Source of the DNA: a virus | Virus record (IMG/VR): IMGVR_UViG_3300037587_000199 | Span: 1-20,647 of that record | Direction: 5' to 3' (one strand) | DNA length: 20,647 nt | Shown here: one piece after another, positions 13,443 to 17,526 of the stretch | How positions within the stretch are numbered: position 1 is the first letter of the stretch | Layout of the letters: the number at the start of each line of letters is the position of its first letter | The notes under the pieces: model-generated | Seen by the model: the letters and a program-made list of their open reading frames with translations, nothing else | What the model was told of the DNA's origin: nothing | Database searches by the model: none | Position numbers and translations under genes: made by a program

Positions 13443-14330
13443 TTAATTGTAAAATAAATCAGTGGCGGATTTGCCTGGCTTGTCTAGAGCTTTCGCCTTT
13501 GAGTTGCCTTTTTTAACAATCGGAGCTTTCTTGACTTTCTTAGTGATTGCTGCCTTTTTACCCTGCAACGCATCATATCTAGCCGCCTTTAGCAGTGCAT
13601 CAATATGCTTTGACTGGTAAACAGTGGCGAACTCTTCCGCCGTCCAGCCGTTATTGCCAAGATAAGTATCAAGTGCAGCCATATCGGATTTGTAAACGTC
13701 TGTCGCTTTACCATCCGCATCAACCCACGTAGGATTGTTTTTAATCAACTGCTGTTGCTCTGCCGCTATGTCTGCATCGCTTGTCGGTTTGGTCGTGGTT
13801 AATGACTCCTTGGCTTTGCTTAATAGCTTTTCTCGCTTGGCTTTCTGCTCACTAAGCCTGATGTATTCATCAGGATCGTACTTGTCCGATTCAACGTCAC
13901 GCAATTCATCAAGATTAACTTCGTCTTCGCTACCAATGACAGCCTGTAATTCTGCTGCTAATGATGCGATTGATTCGGTTTGTGTAGCTAGTTCAACCCT
14001 GTCAGCTTCAAATGCTGTGCGTTGATCTGCTAGCTCCTGAGTTTTGCGCGTATAATCCGCCTGCATTAAACCATGTGATTTCCACTCCTTGACTTGATCC
14101 AGGCTTACTTCTTCACCATCTAAGTCGATGTAAAGAAGCTCTTGATCTTCGTCTGAGCTTTCGTCTTCATTGCCTTCTACAACTTCAGATTCTTCGGCAT
14201 CAACTTCAGCCGGGGTTTCATCTTCGGTTTCGGTTATGACTTCATCGGTTGTGCTTTCAGCGTCCGGTTCGGTCTTTTCCTGGGTGGTGCCATAAAAAAT
14301 ATCAGTGGGTTCCAAGGTTGGAGTGTCCAT
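13443..14330 (-). CDS. Capsid scaffolding protein
   Basis: 295-aa protein ahead of the coat gene, with the charge layout of a scaffold. Residues about 15-80 are very acidic (Glu/Asp/Thr-rich), 95-190 form long coiled-coil helices, and 258-290 are strongly basic, with K-K-V-K-K and further lysines. It would assemble inside the procapsid with coat protein and then leave or be degraded; no protease gene or protease motif is visible nearby. A notable detail is the near-identical motif at both ends: T-D-I-F-Y at residues 9-13 and T-D-L-F-Y at 290-294, both possible coat-contact points (inference). AGGA lies 7 nt before the ATG, and the gene starts 2 nt after the previous stop. Confidence 0.8.
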   Translation of the reverse strand: MDTPTLEPTDIFYGTTQEKTEPDAESTTDEVITETEDETPAEVDAEESEVVEGNEDESSDEDQELLYIDLDGEEVSLDQVKEWKSHGLMQADYTRKTQELADQRTAFEADRVELATQTESIASLAAELQAVIGSEDEVNLDELRDVESDKYDPDEYIRLSEQKAKREKLLSKAKESLTTTKPTSDADIAAEQQQLIKNNPTWVDADGKATDVYKSDMAALDTYLGNNGWTAEEFATVYQSKHIDALLKAARYDALQGKKAAITKKVKKAPIVKKGNSKAKALDKPGKSATDLFYN

Positions 14331-14332
14331 GA

Positions 14333-14629
14333 TTAATTCCTGATCTTGTTAATGAGTTGTTCAAGTCGACTGATTTTTGTTTCAGCCAGCTTGCCGTTTT
14401 GCATTGTGCGCTCAAATATATCTTGCAACTTCTCGATAGTATCCATGCGCCGTTTAATTTCTAATAGTTCGTCAACGTCCTTATGTGATGCGTTAGTAAA
14501 CTTTTGCAGCAAGTCGGCCCGTATTAACATCATGGCTTGCTTATATGCCGGATTGGTCGTCACCTGATGCGCGTAACTTGCCGTTTGTAATTCTTCGCTT
14601 GCTTTTTCTAGCTCTTGCTTATGATCCAT
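14333..14629 (-). CDS. 98-aa helical protein between portal and scaffold
   Basis: Small, all-helical protein with coiled-coil character over almost its whole length and an ending M-Q-N-G-K-L-A-E-T-K-I. Small phage proteins with a similar M-x-x-G-K-L-A ending occur in portal/scaffold regions and have no firm function. A head-assembly or packaging accessory role is plausible from position only. It is the first minus-strand gene after the plus-strand cassette. An AGGA lies 6-7 nt upstream and a perfect TATAAT on the minus strand at 14664-14669, so it may start a separate transcript for scaffold, coat and cement. Confidence 0.65.
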   Translation of the reverse strand: MDHKQELEKASEELQTASYAHQVTTNPAYKQAMMLIRADLLQKFTNASHKDVDELLEIKRRMDTIEKLQDIFERTMQNGKLAETKISRLEQLINKIRN

Positions 14630-14663
14630 TCACAGTCCTAATCTGGTTGTTGTGACTTGTTAT

Positions 14664-14669
14664 ATTATA
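14664..14669 (-). promoter_or_regulatory. Candidate minus-strand -10 element for the scaffold-coat transcript
   Basis: A perfect TATAAT on the minus strand lies 35 nt before the ATG of the 98-aa gene, in the divergent region 14630-14737. The -35 region at the best spacing is weak (about 2-3 of 6 matches), so an activator, or a phage-specific signal, would be needed. Its position just inside the break in the head operon makes it attractive. Confidence 0.35.
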
Positions 14670-14688
14670 GCGTTTTTGCTATTGTGTT

Positions 14689-14705
14689 GGTATATGGCGC
14701 ATACC
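14689..14705. repeat. Imperfect inverted repeat in the divergent intergenic region
   Basis: GGTAT (14689-14693) and ATACC (14701-14705) form a 17-bp imperfect palindrome between the divergent 98-aa (minus) and 67-aa (plus) genes. The size and placement suit a dimeric repressor operator. The 67-aa product with a possible helix-turn-helix would be the natural candidate to bind it. Both statements are inference from position. Confidence 0.3.
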
Positions 14706-14737
14706 GCGTTATCTATAGGCTTTTGCTCGGGAGAACA

Positions 14738-14941
14738 ATGAATAAATTCACACTAATAGTTCATAACAAAGACTGGACGGTTAAAGATGCTTGCGCGTAT
14801 TGGGGTATTCGATACGAGACATTTAACAAGCGATGCAACAGCGATAGGATGCACAACCAGCTTGAGTGTATGTGCATGGGCCTTGAGGATAAGTCTACAC
14901 TTTATAGGCTTGGTGTCTCAACAACGGAGGGTAAGTTATGA
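14738..14941 (+). CDS. 67-aa protein with possible helix-turn-helix, inserted plus-strand cassette gene 1
   Basis: First gene of a three-gene plus-strand cassette sitting inside the minus-strand head operon. The middle, W-T-V-K-D-A-C-A-Y-W-G-I-R-Y-E-T-F-N-K-R, has the spacing of a helix-turn-helix (helix, turn around W-G-I, recognition helix with Y-E-T-F). The rest contains three further cysteines, one in an E-C-M-C-M pattern. A DNA-binding role is possible but not established. The ATG at 14738 has GGGAG about 6 nt upstream. A longer frame starting with TTG at 14657 lacks a ribosome site and would cover the divergent promoter region. Its stop overlaps the next start as ATGA. No homologue recognised. 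Confidence 0.6.
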   Translation: MNKFTLIVHNKDWTVKDACAYWGIRYETFNKRCNSDRMHNQLECMCMGLEDKSTLYRLGVSTTEGKL

Positions 14942-15186
14942 TCTTTACGAAAGATAAGTACAGATACAACTGGCTGACAAAGCAGTGGGAGTTTCTTTGT
15001 AAAACATGTATAAGAGCTTTGCCAAAGGAAGCTATGAGTATGCTAGAGTTAACTAAAATGTTGGACTCGGAAAAGTTAAAGAAAGCCTATATAGAGGGCT
15101 TCCACGATGCTAGGGATGCTGATTATTTGGGCGCTGATGTATTTGCGCGATGGGAGTCTTCAAAAACTAAGAGTGGAAAGCAATGA
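14938..15186 (+). CDS. 82-aa unknown protein, inserted plus-strand cassette gene 2
   Basis: Charged, probably soluble 82-aa protein with a good GGAGGG site about 7 nt before its ATG and an ATGA overlap with gene 1. It begins with a basic, aromatic stretch (K-D-K-Y-R-Y-N-W-L-T-K-Q-W-E-F-L) with a C-K-T-C pair at 21-24. A helical region follows, ending in Y-I-E-G-F-H-D-A-R-D-A-D-Y-L-G-A-D. That A-Y-x-E-G-F-x-D-A-R type of helix is common in very small phage early proteins. One C-x-x-C pair is not enough for a zinc finger. Function unknown; host takeover, superinfection exclusion or regulation are all possible. Confidence 0.6.
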   Translation: MIFTKDKYRYNWLTKQWEFLCKTCIRALPKEAMSMLELTKMLDSEKLKKAYIEGFHDARDADYLGADVFARWESSKTKSGKQ

Positions 15187-15314
15187 GTAAACTCATAGGC
15201 TACGGGCTGCAAGCCATCGCCTATTTCGGTTTGTTTATGGTGACGGGTAATCCGTATATCCCGGCCTTTGTATTTATAATATTCTTAGGCCGGGGAATGG
15301 TTAAGGTTGGCTAG
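15183..15314 (+). CDS. 43-aa hydrophobic peptide, inserted plus-strand cassette gene 3
   Basis: Short frame with an ATGA overlap on gene 2 that ends inside the convergent portal gene (14-bp overlap). Hydrophobic residues run from about 4 to 20 and again from 27 to 37, separated by T-G-N-P-Y, giving one or two membrane passes. A short basic end follows (R-G-M-V-K-V-G). An 8-bp inverted repeat lies within its coding sequence. The coupled start and clear membrane character make it more likely than chance. Its role could be a membrane anchor, an exclusion peptide or a lysis-timing peptide; the sequence does not decide. Confidence 0.45.
   Translation: MSKLIGYGLQAIAYFGLFMVTGNPYIPAFVFIIFLGRGMVKVG
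15260..15294. repeat. Perfect 8-bp inverted repeat with AT-rich 19-nt loop at the portal/cassette junction
   Basis: CCCGGCCT (15260-15267) pairs exactly with AGGCCGGG (15287-15294) around a loop made almost entirely of A and T. It begins 6 bp beyond the portal stop, and in the same interval the 43-aa gene ends. Neither strand has a U-tract after the stem, so it is not a standard intrinsic terminator. It may be a 3'-end stabiliser or pause site for both convergent transcripts. Confidence 0.6.
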
Positions 15315-17526
15315 GCAATTCAGGATCTAACTTGTCATCGCCTTGTTGGGCCTCGATTACCTCGCGGGTTTGATTAATCACCGCCGCCTGTGTTCCCGGC
15401 CCTATCACTGGGCCTTGTGCGGCATCCTGTAACGTCTTCAGTGCTTGCGCTTGTGATTGGATAGCTTCGAGTATTGCGCTCTGCTGTGCCATTACCTGAT
15501 TGAATCGTTGGTCTTGAGCTGCTAAGTCAATCTTCTGCTGTTCCTGTATCGCATCCGATTGATCTTTTGCGTCCTTAGATTCAAGTTTGGCCGCTTCTAA
15601 TGTTAGCTTACCTTCAGCGATTGCAATGTCACCTTCACGCTTAATGGCTTCTGCTTCGGCCAGTGGGTTGGCTGATGCTTGTAACTGCTGGGTTAATTGC
15701 TCAAGCTGCCCCCTCATTAACTCGTTCTCAGCCTGTAAAGTTTCAGTCTCAACCTCAGGGTTGTTATAGAAGTCCTGAACATTACCAAGGCCGGTTGCTT
15801 TGATTAGTCGCTGCCTAACATTGTAAATCTTGACACTATCAACTAACTCTGAACCCTGAGCTTGTAACTGTAGTTGGTCAGCAGACACAGCCGTTAACGT
15901 GCTAATGCTTTCCTCGTTGTCGCTAATGGCTAGACCAACTTCAGAAACTACCGAGTGATCAAACTCCCAATCAGCCGGGTTAACCGTTAACGCCTCGCCT
16001 AAAATCATGGTTTCGATTTCAGTGTTTTGGAATCTTGAAACCGTCCAGGCTACACCTTCAAATAGTTTGCGCCAGCCGGTTTCTGCAAATACTCTTGCGA
16101 CTAACTCGATCTTCTCCTTGCCAGCCGATTCTATGCCGTTAAACCGTGTCGCTGTCTCTTGGTTCAAGTCATCAGCCGCAAGCCCTTGTGATGTTGCAAG
16201 CGCGCCTGTGCGGTTGGTTCTTTGTTGGTCTAGGTAGTTAAGCATGAGTAACGCTTTGTCACCGATGAACGGCACCTCGACAGGGAACATATTTTGCCCT
16301 GGGTTTGTTTCTCCCTTGCTTCTGATTATTCCATTTAACACAATGGTTGTCATATCATCGACATTAATATTTTCATTGATTGCTATTCGTGGGTTGTTAA
16401 CTGCATAGGTGTTATCAGCAGCACCCCGAAGCATCACAGACTTAGATCTTTGTGTCTCCATGACGAGTTCGGCACGACTACGACCAATTAGCTTATGAGG
16501 CATTAAGATAGCTGACAATGCCGCGTATGGCTCGTGATTAAATGCTTCATCTGATAGCAGCACTGAGCCTGATTTACGAATGAACCGGCGCTCTGCAACA
16601 CCATCGCCATCGCGATCTATTTTGACATAACGATTCTCAACCCTGACTTCTTCACTTGCCCAATCCGTAATCTCGTTGCCGCCTGAACTGTCCTTGTCTC
16701 CGTCTTCGTCGTTGAATCTGATACTTTTTAGATTAGATGATGAATTTGATGAGGTTGTGTTAGTTGTTGTATTGCCGCCAACTCTTAATAGTTTGTTGAT
16801 TAGCTTTTTACTAAAGCCTTGGCTTAACAGTTCACCACGAGTGACTATTTCATCATCGCCAACTAGCTCGGCGTCTTCAATCGACGTTGCCAGCCTGGAC
16901 ACCCTGAAGGCTTCGGGCGCAATACCAACTATCTGTAATTTCTGCTGCCCTTTCGTTACCTTAAATGTTACATCAAACTCCCCGGTTTCTTCGTCCTGCT
17001 CGGTTGACTCAACGACATCAATCTTTTTAACGTCTTCACCTTTCAGGCTTTCTTCGAGCGCGACCAATTCGAATTCAGAAATGTTTTCAAACTTATGCTC
17101 AGTGGTTGTTAATGTGTCTTCGATAAAGTATTTAACGACTGAAACCTTTTGTATTTCCGCATCCTTCATCCAACCGTGAAGCGTGGCGAATGATTCAGGT
17201 TGATGGCGAATGAGCCAGTTAATATACTTGGTCTTCTGCTCTGCCTCCTTGCGATCTTCGGGGCTGTCAGTGTGTGGCTCAAACTTCATCACGCTATTTG
17301 AACCAAGGAACGTGCGCACCAGTGACGGCATGTCAGCTTCAACAACGTCCTGAACATCAGTAGAGATTAAAGATGATCGCCCGTCTTCTTCGTCACCAAA
17401 TGGCAAGCCTAAGTAATACTCAAGAGCCTTTTCGCTTTCTCGATTGAACTCACCGCTGAACTGAACCGCATCAGCATCAGCTGCATTTACCAACGTGATC
17501 AGTGTGTCATCTGTCATTCTTGCCAT
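15301..17526 (-). CDS. Portal protein, P22 gp1-like
   Basis: 741-aa portal (P22 gp1 is 725 aa), the dodecameric ring through which DNA enters and leaves the head and where terminase docks. Family-typical features: S-x-L-I-S-T-D-V-Q-D-V-V-E near 52-63; E-N-R-Y-V-K-I-D-R-D-G-D-G-V-A-E near 297-312; N-R-T-G-A-L-A-T-S-Q-G-L near 438-449. The C-terminal part from about 594 to 702 is a long Gln/Ala/Glu-rich helical region, corresponding to the internal barrel of P22 portal. A Thr/Ser/Asn-only stretch at 253-266 looks like a flexible loop. The gene begins in a TAATG overlap with terL. Its end overlaps the opposite-strand 43-aa peptide, so it is the last gene before the plus-strand break. Confidence 0.85.
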   Translation of the reverse strand: MARMTDDTLITLVNAADADAVQFSGEFNRESEKALEYYLGLPFGDEEDGRSSLISTDVQDVVEADMPSLVRTFLGSNSVMKFEPHTDSPEDRKEAEQKTKYINWLIRHQPESFATLHGWMKDAEIQKVSVVKYFIEDTLTTTEHKFENISEFELVALEESLKGEDVKKIDVVESTEQDEETGEFDVTFKVTKGQQKLQIVGIAPEAFRVSRLATSIEDAELVGDDEIVTRGELLSQGFSKKLINKLLRVGGNTTTNTTSSNSSSNLKSIRFNDEDGDKDSSGGNEITDWASEEVRVENRYVKIDRDGDGVAERRFIRKSGSVLLSDEAFNHEPYAALSAILMPHKLIGRSRAELVMETQRSKSVMLRGAADNTYAVNNPRIAINENINVDDMTTIVLNGIIRSKGETNPGQNMFPVEVPFIGDKALLMLNYLDQQRTNRTGALATSQGLAADDLNQETATRFNGIESAGKEKIELVARVFAETGWRKLFEGVAWTVSRFQNTEIETMILGEALTVNPADWEFDHSVVSEVGLAISDNEESISTLTAVSADQLQLQAQGSELVDSVKIYNVRQRLIKATGLGNVQDFYNNPEVETETLQAENELMRGQLEQLTQQLQASANPLAEAEAIKREGDIAIAEGKLTLEAAKLESKDAKDQSDAIQEQQKIDLAAQDQRFNQVMAQQSAILEAIQSQAQALKTLQDAAQGPVIGPGTQAAVINQTREVIEAQQGDDKLDPELPSQP

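Follow-up and report, generated by a model that had tools for sequence, protein, structure and literature searches.

The DNA analysed here, a 20,647-nt stretch from a virus (hereafter the window), carries a block of virion genes read from the minus strand and interrupted at 14738-15314, between the portal gene and a 98-aa gene, by three coupled genes of 67, 82 and 43 aa on the plus strand. What kind of element is this insert, how is its expression controlled and what might it do for the phage? The original prediction regarded the interval as a moron, essentially from its position. By comparison with related viral loci we arrive, with a probability of roughly two in three, at the view that it is a mobile, self-regulated accessory cassette (moron) of podovirus-like phages, likely bearing cargo for anti-defence or host takeover. 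The features on which the argument turns are collected in Table 1.

Table 1. Features of the insert and of its flanks, in window coordinates
Feature	Position	Strand	Description
98-aa virion-block gene	14333..14629	-	Flank; next after portal in insert-free relatives; homologues directly 3' of portal in L002, L003, L006, L009 and L017
Predicted sigma70-like promoter block	14657..14685	+	-35 TTGTTA (14657-14662), 17-nt spacer TATTATAGCGTTTTTGC, -10 TATTGT (14680-14685), TGC just before -10
Putative operator	14689..14711		GGTAT-ATGGCGC-ATACC (14689-14705) overlapping TGGCGC-ATACC-GCGTTA (14695-14711)
pA	14738..14941	+	67 aa; small helix-turn-helix protein, predicted autoregulator
pB	14938..15186	+	82 aa; charged orphan cargo protein
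pC	15183..15314	+	43 aa; predicted membrane peptide, orphan cargo
Portal	15301..17526	-	Flank; Pfam SU10_portal, E 3e-140

Anatomy of the insert and the slot that it occupies

The surrounding minus-strand genes encode the terminase large subunit, the SU10-type portal, a scaffold and a GP7-type coat protein. Within the insert, both the pA/pB and the pB/pC junctions are 4-nt ATGA overlaps, and pC converges on the 3' end of the portal gene with an overlap of 14 nt. None of 1000 dinucleotide shuffles of this stretch yielded three coupled ATG open reading frames (ORFs) of at least 40 aa in a row, and the GC skew is +0.22 over the interval as against about -0.05 to -0.15 on either side. The three-gene plus-strand arrangement is real, as first proposed, and not a chance occurrence. 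The good ribosome sites noted at first hold for pA, which is preceded by the Shine-Dalgarno-like GGGAGA (14729-14734), and for pB, which is preceded by the strong GGAGGG (14926-14931), but not for pC, whose site is weak (AGAG/GGAAA only). The coding status of pA follows from its conservation (73% identity to relatives), while that of pB and pC rests on coupling and skew because neither has a homologue in the searched sets. No RNA families or tRNAs were detected in a scan of the window, so that integration targeted to a tRNA is not suggested.

Relatives were gathered through the capsid protein (38 viral loci) and through the portal (80 more). In L002, L003, L009 and L017, nothing separates the portal from the 98-aa-type gene, which it abuts or overlaps, and the insert of the window is therefore not core; many relatives have no cassette and join the portal straight to the next gene. 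The nearest relatives, L004 and L005 (portal 69%, MCP 92%), are nearly identical over their common stretch and were counted as one virus type. In exactly the same slot they carry a different opposite-strand gene pair (85 and 131 aa), preceded by a related promoter block that in L004 reads CATTATAACCTTTTTGCTAG. A single same-strand gene of 425 aa, with no family match in Pfam or PHROGs, fills the portal-downstream slot of L008 (L008:7582-8859), and the portal/98-aa junction of L177 holds a pA cassette. Empty or variously filled as it is in relatives, this slot is therefore an insertion hot spot.

Phage morons, familiar from lambdoid and Mu-like phages, are accessory genes with a promoter of their own. 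The insert resembles them in lying between genes that are adjacent in relatives, in its predicted own promoter and in its orientation, since morons, too, often occupy the opposite strand; on this comparative definition it can be classed as a moron. The accessory character originally proposed is thereby upheld: far from being core, the genes are absent or replaced in the relatives compared, and the insert has a conserved, predicted promoter block of its own, described below. The cassettes described here differ from the known morons in being multi-gene and regulator-led and in exchanging their cargo at a small number of fixed junctions. Nor was a terminator recognised, a scan for terminator-like hairpins at 14300-15700 having found none, and the phages are mostly without an integrase. 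A tyrosine integrase was not seen in seven of eight related records, three of which are 37-38 kb long with terminal repeats, and lysogenic conversion, one of the roles first considered, is in general less likely. The sole tyrosine-recombinase match among the eight lies in a 212-aa open frame of G014 (the record of L070) at 16065-16595.

The pA family and its genomic positions

The search for relatives of pA began with a weak tblastn match in Vibrio phages and proceeded through two alignment-based scans and one promoter-based scan of viral contigs, which together yielded homologues in about 28 distinct phage records, obvious duplicates merged, at 42-73% identity. An AlphaFold2 model built from 19 sequences (pLDDT 84) contains five helices, at residues 3-10, 15-22, 26-33, 36-47 and 52-58, whose order and spacing are those expected of Cro/XRE domains, and family members give weak Pfam matches to HTH_23, HTH_59 and HTH_17. 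Foldseek returned no significant match (best E 3.2), most of its PDB matches being of XRE, LacI and C-protein types with Aca1 among them, and a family-profile search found no sequence relative in the PDB at E <= 10. From its topology and the weak profile matches, pA is predicted to be a five-helix, Cro/XRE-like helix-turn-helix (HTH) protein, which agrees with the original suggestion of a possible HTH product. A plasmid search found no relatives of pA, and a nucleotide search of phage genomes gave no match. The sole match in a genome-contig scan (L055) was discarded as false, lying inside a Methanothrix protein.

Most pA genes are sited at the TerL/portal junction, others at the portal/98-aa junction (the window and L177) or, in a second phage group, at the scaffold/portal junction. 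Opposite-strand cassettes in general occupy the TerL/portal junction in about 30 records and the scaffold/portal junction in the second phage group. The supposition of one cassette per genome was rejected on account of L177, in which two opposite-strand cassettes coexist, a zinc-ribbon-only one at TerL/portal and the pA one at the portal/98-aa junction. In podovirus-like records with readable neighbours, pA is on the strand opposite the virion genes. As a general rule, 'always opposite strand' was likewise rejected, with pA homologues on the same strand as the terminase in some Vibrio phages and in the siphovirus-like L053 and L054; opposite orientation is a property of the cassettes near that of the window and not of the whole pA family. 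Same-strand small genes are found at the TerL/portal junction of L134, L169 and L181. In Vibrio phage 1.131.O (L045) a pA homologue lies opposite the head genes, behind a gene that is ParB-like by eye, and in Vibrio phage 1.168.O (L046) the same pair is found in the early region, a difference of site that argues for mobility.

Predicted promoter block, leader and type of regulator

The predicted promoter block of the window is kept ahead of about 23 related cassettes. Its consensus is TTG/TTT-17-TAnnnT, with a spacer that starts TATTATA and often a TGC before the -10, and the 17-nt spacing and TAnnnT are retained though the first gene or the cargo differs. Within the window the pattern occurs without mismatch only once. 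When the pattern alone was scanned over all viral contigs, 26 loci were recovered, of which seven have a pA homologue just downstream, and this recovery of pA cassettes by a promoter-only scan is, in our view, what most strongly ties the promoter to the cassette. The same scan picked out L093, a related phage in which a different 68-aa protein, Cro/CI-type-regulator-like by eye, lies downstream.

The block can also be read in the other direction. The complement of TATTATA is a perfect TATAAT, a minus-strand TATAAT is present in most cassettes, and several of these score well together with a -35 (in L004, TTGTCA-17-TATAAT, 11/12). Cro-like genes often have divergent overlapping promoters beside them, and pA might mainly regulate late transcription of the phage, the TATTATA block serving as a minus-strand promoter that restarts the virion genes beyond the insert and pA switching between the two directions. 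We consider this quite improbable: conservation extends to the plus-strand elements (TTG/TTT, the 17-nt spacer and TAnnnT) but not to the minus-strand -35; no promoter is seen at this place in relatives that lack the insert; and zinc-ribbon-only cassettes retain the block without any HTH gene.

Under the preferred reading, in which the block is the plus-strand promoter of the cassette, the DNA that follows it would be the place of control. Leader dyads in related cassettes are located after the -10, usually from 7-9 nt downstream, and their summed score across the set of cassettes is 76, compared with 43 +/- 6.4 in mononucleotide shuffles. The dyad of the window itself is weak (p about 0.08; 0.37 with longer arms). 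One pA subgroup has the dyad ATAGGC-n-GCCTAT and another TAGTGC-AATTC-GCGCTA, and the pA cassette of L177 has a perfect one, ATGGGT-gattt-ACCCAT. An automatic per-locus dyad test gave p <= 0.05 at 5 of 26 loci, with the promoter misplaced in several. Because this automatic placement failed at several loci (for example L052, L073, L143, L145 and L149), the per-locus dyad statistics and the leader-length test are rough, and the leader ranges quoted here come only from loci with a recognised promoter block.

These leaders are 38-55 nt long in pA cassettes and 31-33 nt long in zinc-ribbon-only cassettes, where no clear dyad is seen. Cassettes of a second HTH type (L123, L130, L133 and L147) have another promoter, TTGAC[AT]-17-TACGAT, and are headed by a second HTH-like protein of 53 aa that begins MNEATRQLRKKGYTVNEF (for example L123:2782-2447). 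Promoter and leader appear to co-vary with the type of regulator, as computed with kinship among records uncorrected. Further HTH-like types occur in L161 and L144. In L140, L141, L152, L160 and L164, the TerL-portal junction holds minimal opposite-strand cassettes in which the promoter block is accompanied by a single FmdB-type zinc-ribbon gene (59-60 aa) and nothing else. A solitary zinc ribbon is present also in L167, L177 and L178, where the promoter is less clear. Of all the cargo, the zinc ribbon seems to be the most constant.

From this organization we infer that pA binds DNA and represses its own synthesis. On phage entry, host RNA polymerase would read the sigma70 plus-strand promoter into pA, pB and pC, against the direction of the virion genes. 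As pA accumulates, it would most likely bind the leader dyad just after its own promoter and shut that promoter, and the cargo would thus be made in a short pulse early in infection. Later minus-strand transcription of the virion genes, being antisense across the cassette, could then keep expression low.

An operon that opens with a small HTH gene coupled to variable small partners also recalls antitoxin autoregulation, and the non-significant fold matches of pA include HigA2 and NatRT chains. That pA is paired with its neighbour in a small toxin-antitoxin or addiction-like unit maintaining the cassette is nevertheless very improbable, given that the partners of pA differ in nearly every cassette, with no toxin-like family in common and no constant partner. 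Also comparable are the controller (C) proteins of restriction-modification systems and HigA-type antitoxins in general, which are minimal Cro-like autoregulators and appear among the same non-significant matches; here, neither a restriction endonuclease nor a toxin partner was found.

Exchangeable cargo and its possible function

Profile and tblastn searches of phages, viral contigs and related loci found no relatives of pB, whose match to DUF7562 (E 3e-4) is sub-threshold and whose AlphaFold model, computed for the single protein, is poor (pLDDT 60). Such searches, with related loci included, found none for pC either. The peptide is hydrophobic, with a peak Kyte-Doolittle value of 1.86 over 19 residues, in keeping with the membrane peptide first proposed, and its start, ATGAGTAA, places stops in both other frames. 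By these searches pB and pC remain orphans, and the initial statement that none of the products is recognisable still applies to them; pA, on the other hand, is now the marker of a cassette family.

The cargo genes of the cassettes include pB, pC, zinc ribbons and the MTNEMKLLRAFIEASGFD family. When 63 cargo proteins were scanned against Pfam, PHROGs, PADLOC and NCBIfam, the recognisable ones were FmdB-type zinc ribbons, four of which match NCBIfam TIGR02605, and a single DNA methyltransferase (L066-L068; Pfam E 1e-35). Most had no match to known anti-defence proteins, and there was no known anti-CRISPR of the families listed among the 63. The 131-aa cargo of L004 has an N-terminal MTNExKLLRAFIEASGFD and a DYKVTKK motif in common with cargo in L059, L063, L061, L062 and L065, and the nearest relative of the window therefore draws on the same cargo pool.

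The way in which these genes are joined is also distinctive. Starts of the form [AGT]TGA are found in 74 of 85 cassette genes versus 16 of 62 virion genes, and starts that stop both other frames in 31 of 85 versus 0 of 62, counts that are indicative, the start sites having been hand-chosen and homologous cargo included. In the cassettes of L048-L074, the frame-stopping starts take the form ATGANTRA and neighbouring genes mostly overlap by exactly 4 or 8 nt (40 of 68 pairs). Starts of this kind would let modules join in any frame, and the cargo genes may be plug-in modules read through overlapping start and stop signals.

By inspection, related cassettes repeatedly contain predicted membrane peptides of the MIEYIxxSYxFMF type. 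Together with the hydropathy of pC, and with the general precedent of small membrane exclusion proteins, this would suit a membrane-active moron in which pC and its counterparts block the entry of related phages (superinfection exclusion) while pA sets the level. Such a role is unlikely, in that exclusion pays mainly in lysogens and the related records mostly lack the integrase, and in that the recurrent class of cargo is the zinc ribbon and not a membrane protein, the minimal cassettes carrying a zinc ribbon only.

Anti-defence is the leading but unproven function for the cargo, and the charged 82-aa protein and the 43-aa membrane peptide of the window would most likely aid against host defence or in host takeover. 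This assignment is drawn from the resemblance to acr-aca operons and from the anti-restriction-type genes nearby in relatives; in Vibrio phage 13VT501A, for example, a gene annotated as Lar-family restriction alleviation is found two genes away from a pA homologue. In acr-aca operons, anti-CRISPR genes are accompanied by Aca autorepressors, small HTH proteins that repress their own promoters via inverted repeats (PMC9410906). Like them, the present cassettes are accessory operons of phage genomes in which a small (about 60-70 aa) predicted HTH protein is apparently co-transcribed with small variable proteins (here pA comes first, with a 4-nt overlap with pB), a predicted sigma70-type promoter is associated with a putative inverted-repeat operator and different HTH families are swapped between similar operons. 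The cassette is not filed as an acr-aca operon because no known anti-CRISPR was found among the cargo; because pA has no detectable sequence relation to the Aca families with solved structures, to which the comparison was made; because pA usually opens the operon instead of closing it; and because the dyad is in the leader after the -10, not inside the core promoter. The FmdB-type zinc ribbon that recurs in related cassettes is a further difference. By analogy, it may work like one all the same.

In archaeal viruses, early promoters mark anti-defence gene sets (PMC11065993). There, as possibly here, variable genes with a likely anti-defence role can be discovered through the conserved regulatory DNA that marks them; the differences are that the present promoter is of the bacterial sigma70 type, that the viruses are of other kinds and that the type of regulator changes with the promoter. 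We found no description of this cassette class in open-access papers, most of the subscription literature lying outside the search. A broader proposal, which we advance tentatively and at somewhat less than even odds, is that these cassettes form a widespread, previously undescribed class of plug-in anti-defence or takeover elements in podovirus-like phages, with a conserved promoter block, exchangeable HTH-operator modules and ATGANTRA starts. The three-gene insert, at first unrecognised, can in this way be placed in a cassette class that recurs and can be searched for by its promoter and its marker protein. If the cargo is indeed anti-defence, pA and the promoter would be bait for inhibitors of bacterial immunity in environmental phages, for which few are known. 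It would also make testable the general idea that standard, regulated sites inside the virion gene block are reserved by phages for exchangeable counter-defence genes.

Elsewhere in the window, two overlapping plus-strand ORFs at its left end (7-366 and 305-853) also lie opposite virion genes. One product is small and resembles a peptidase, the other has 182 aa and contains a hydrophobic stretch; from an impression of their sequences only, the two are possibly lysis genes.
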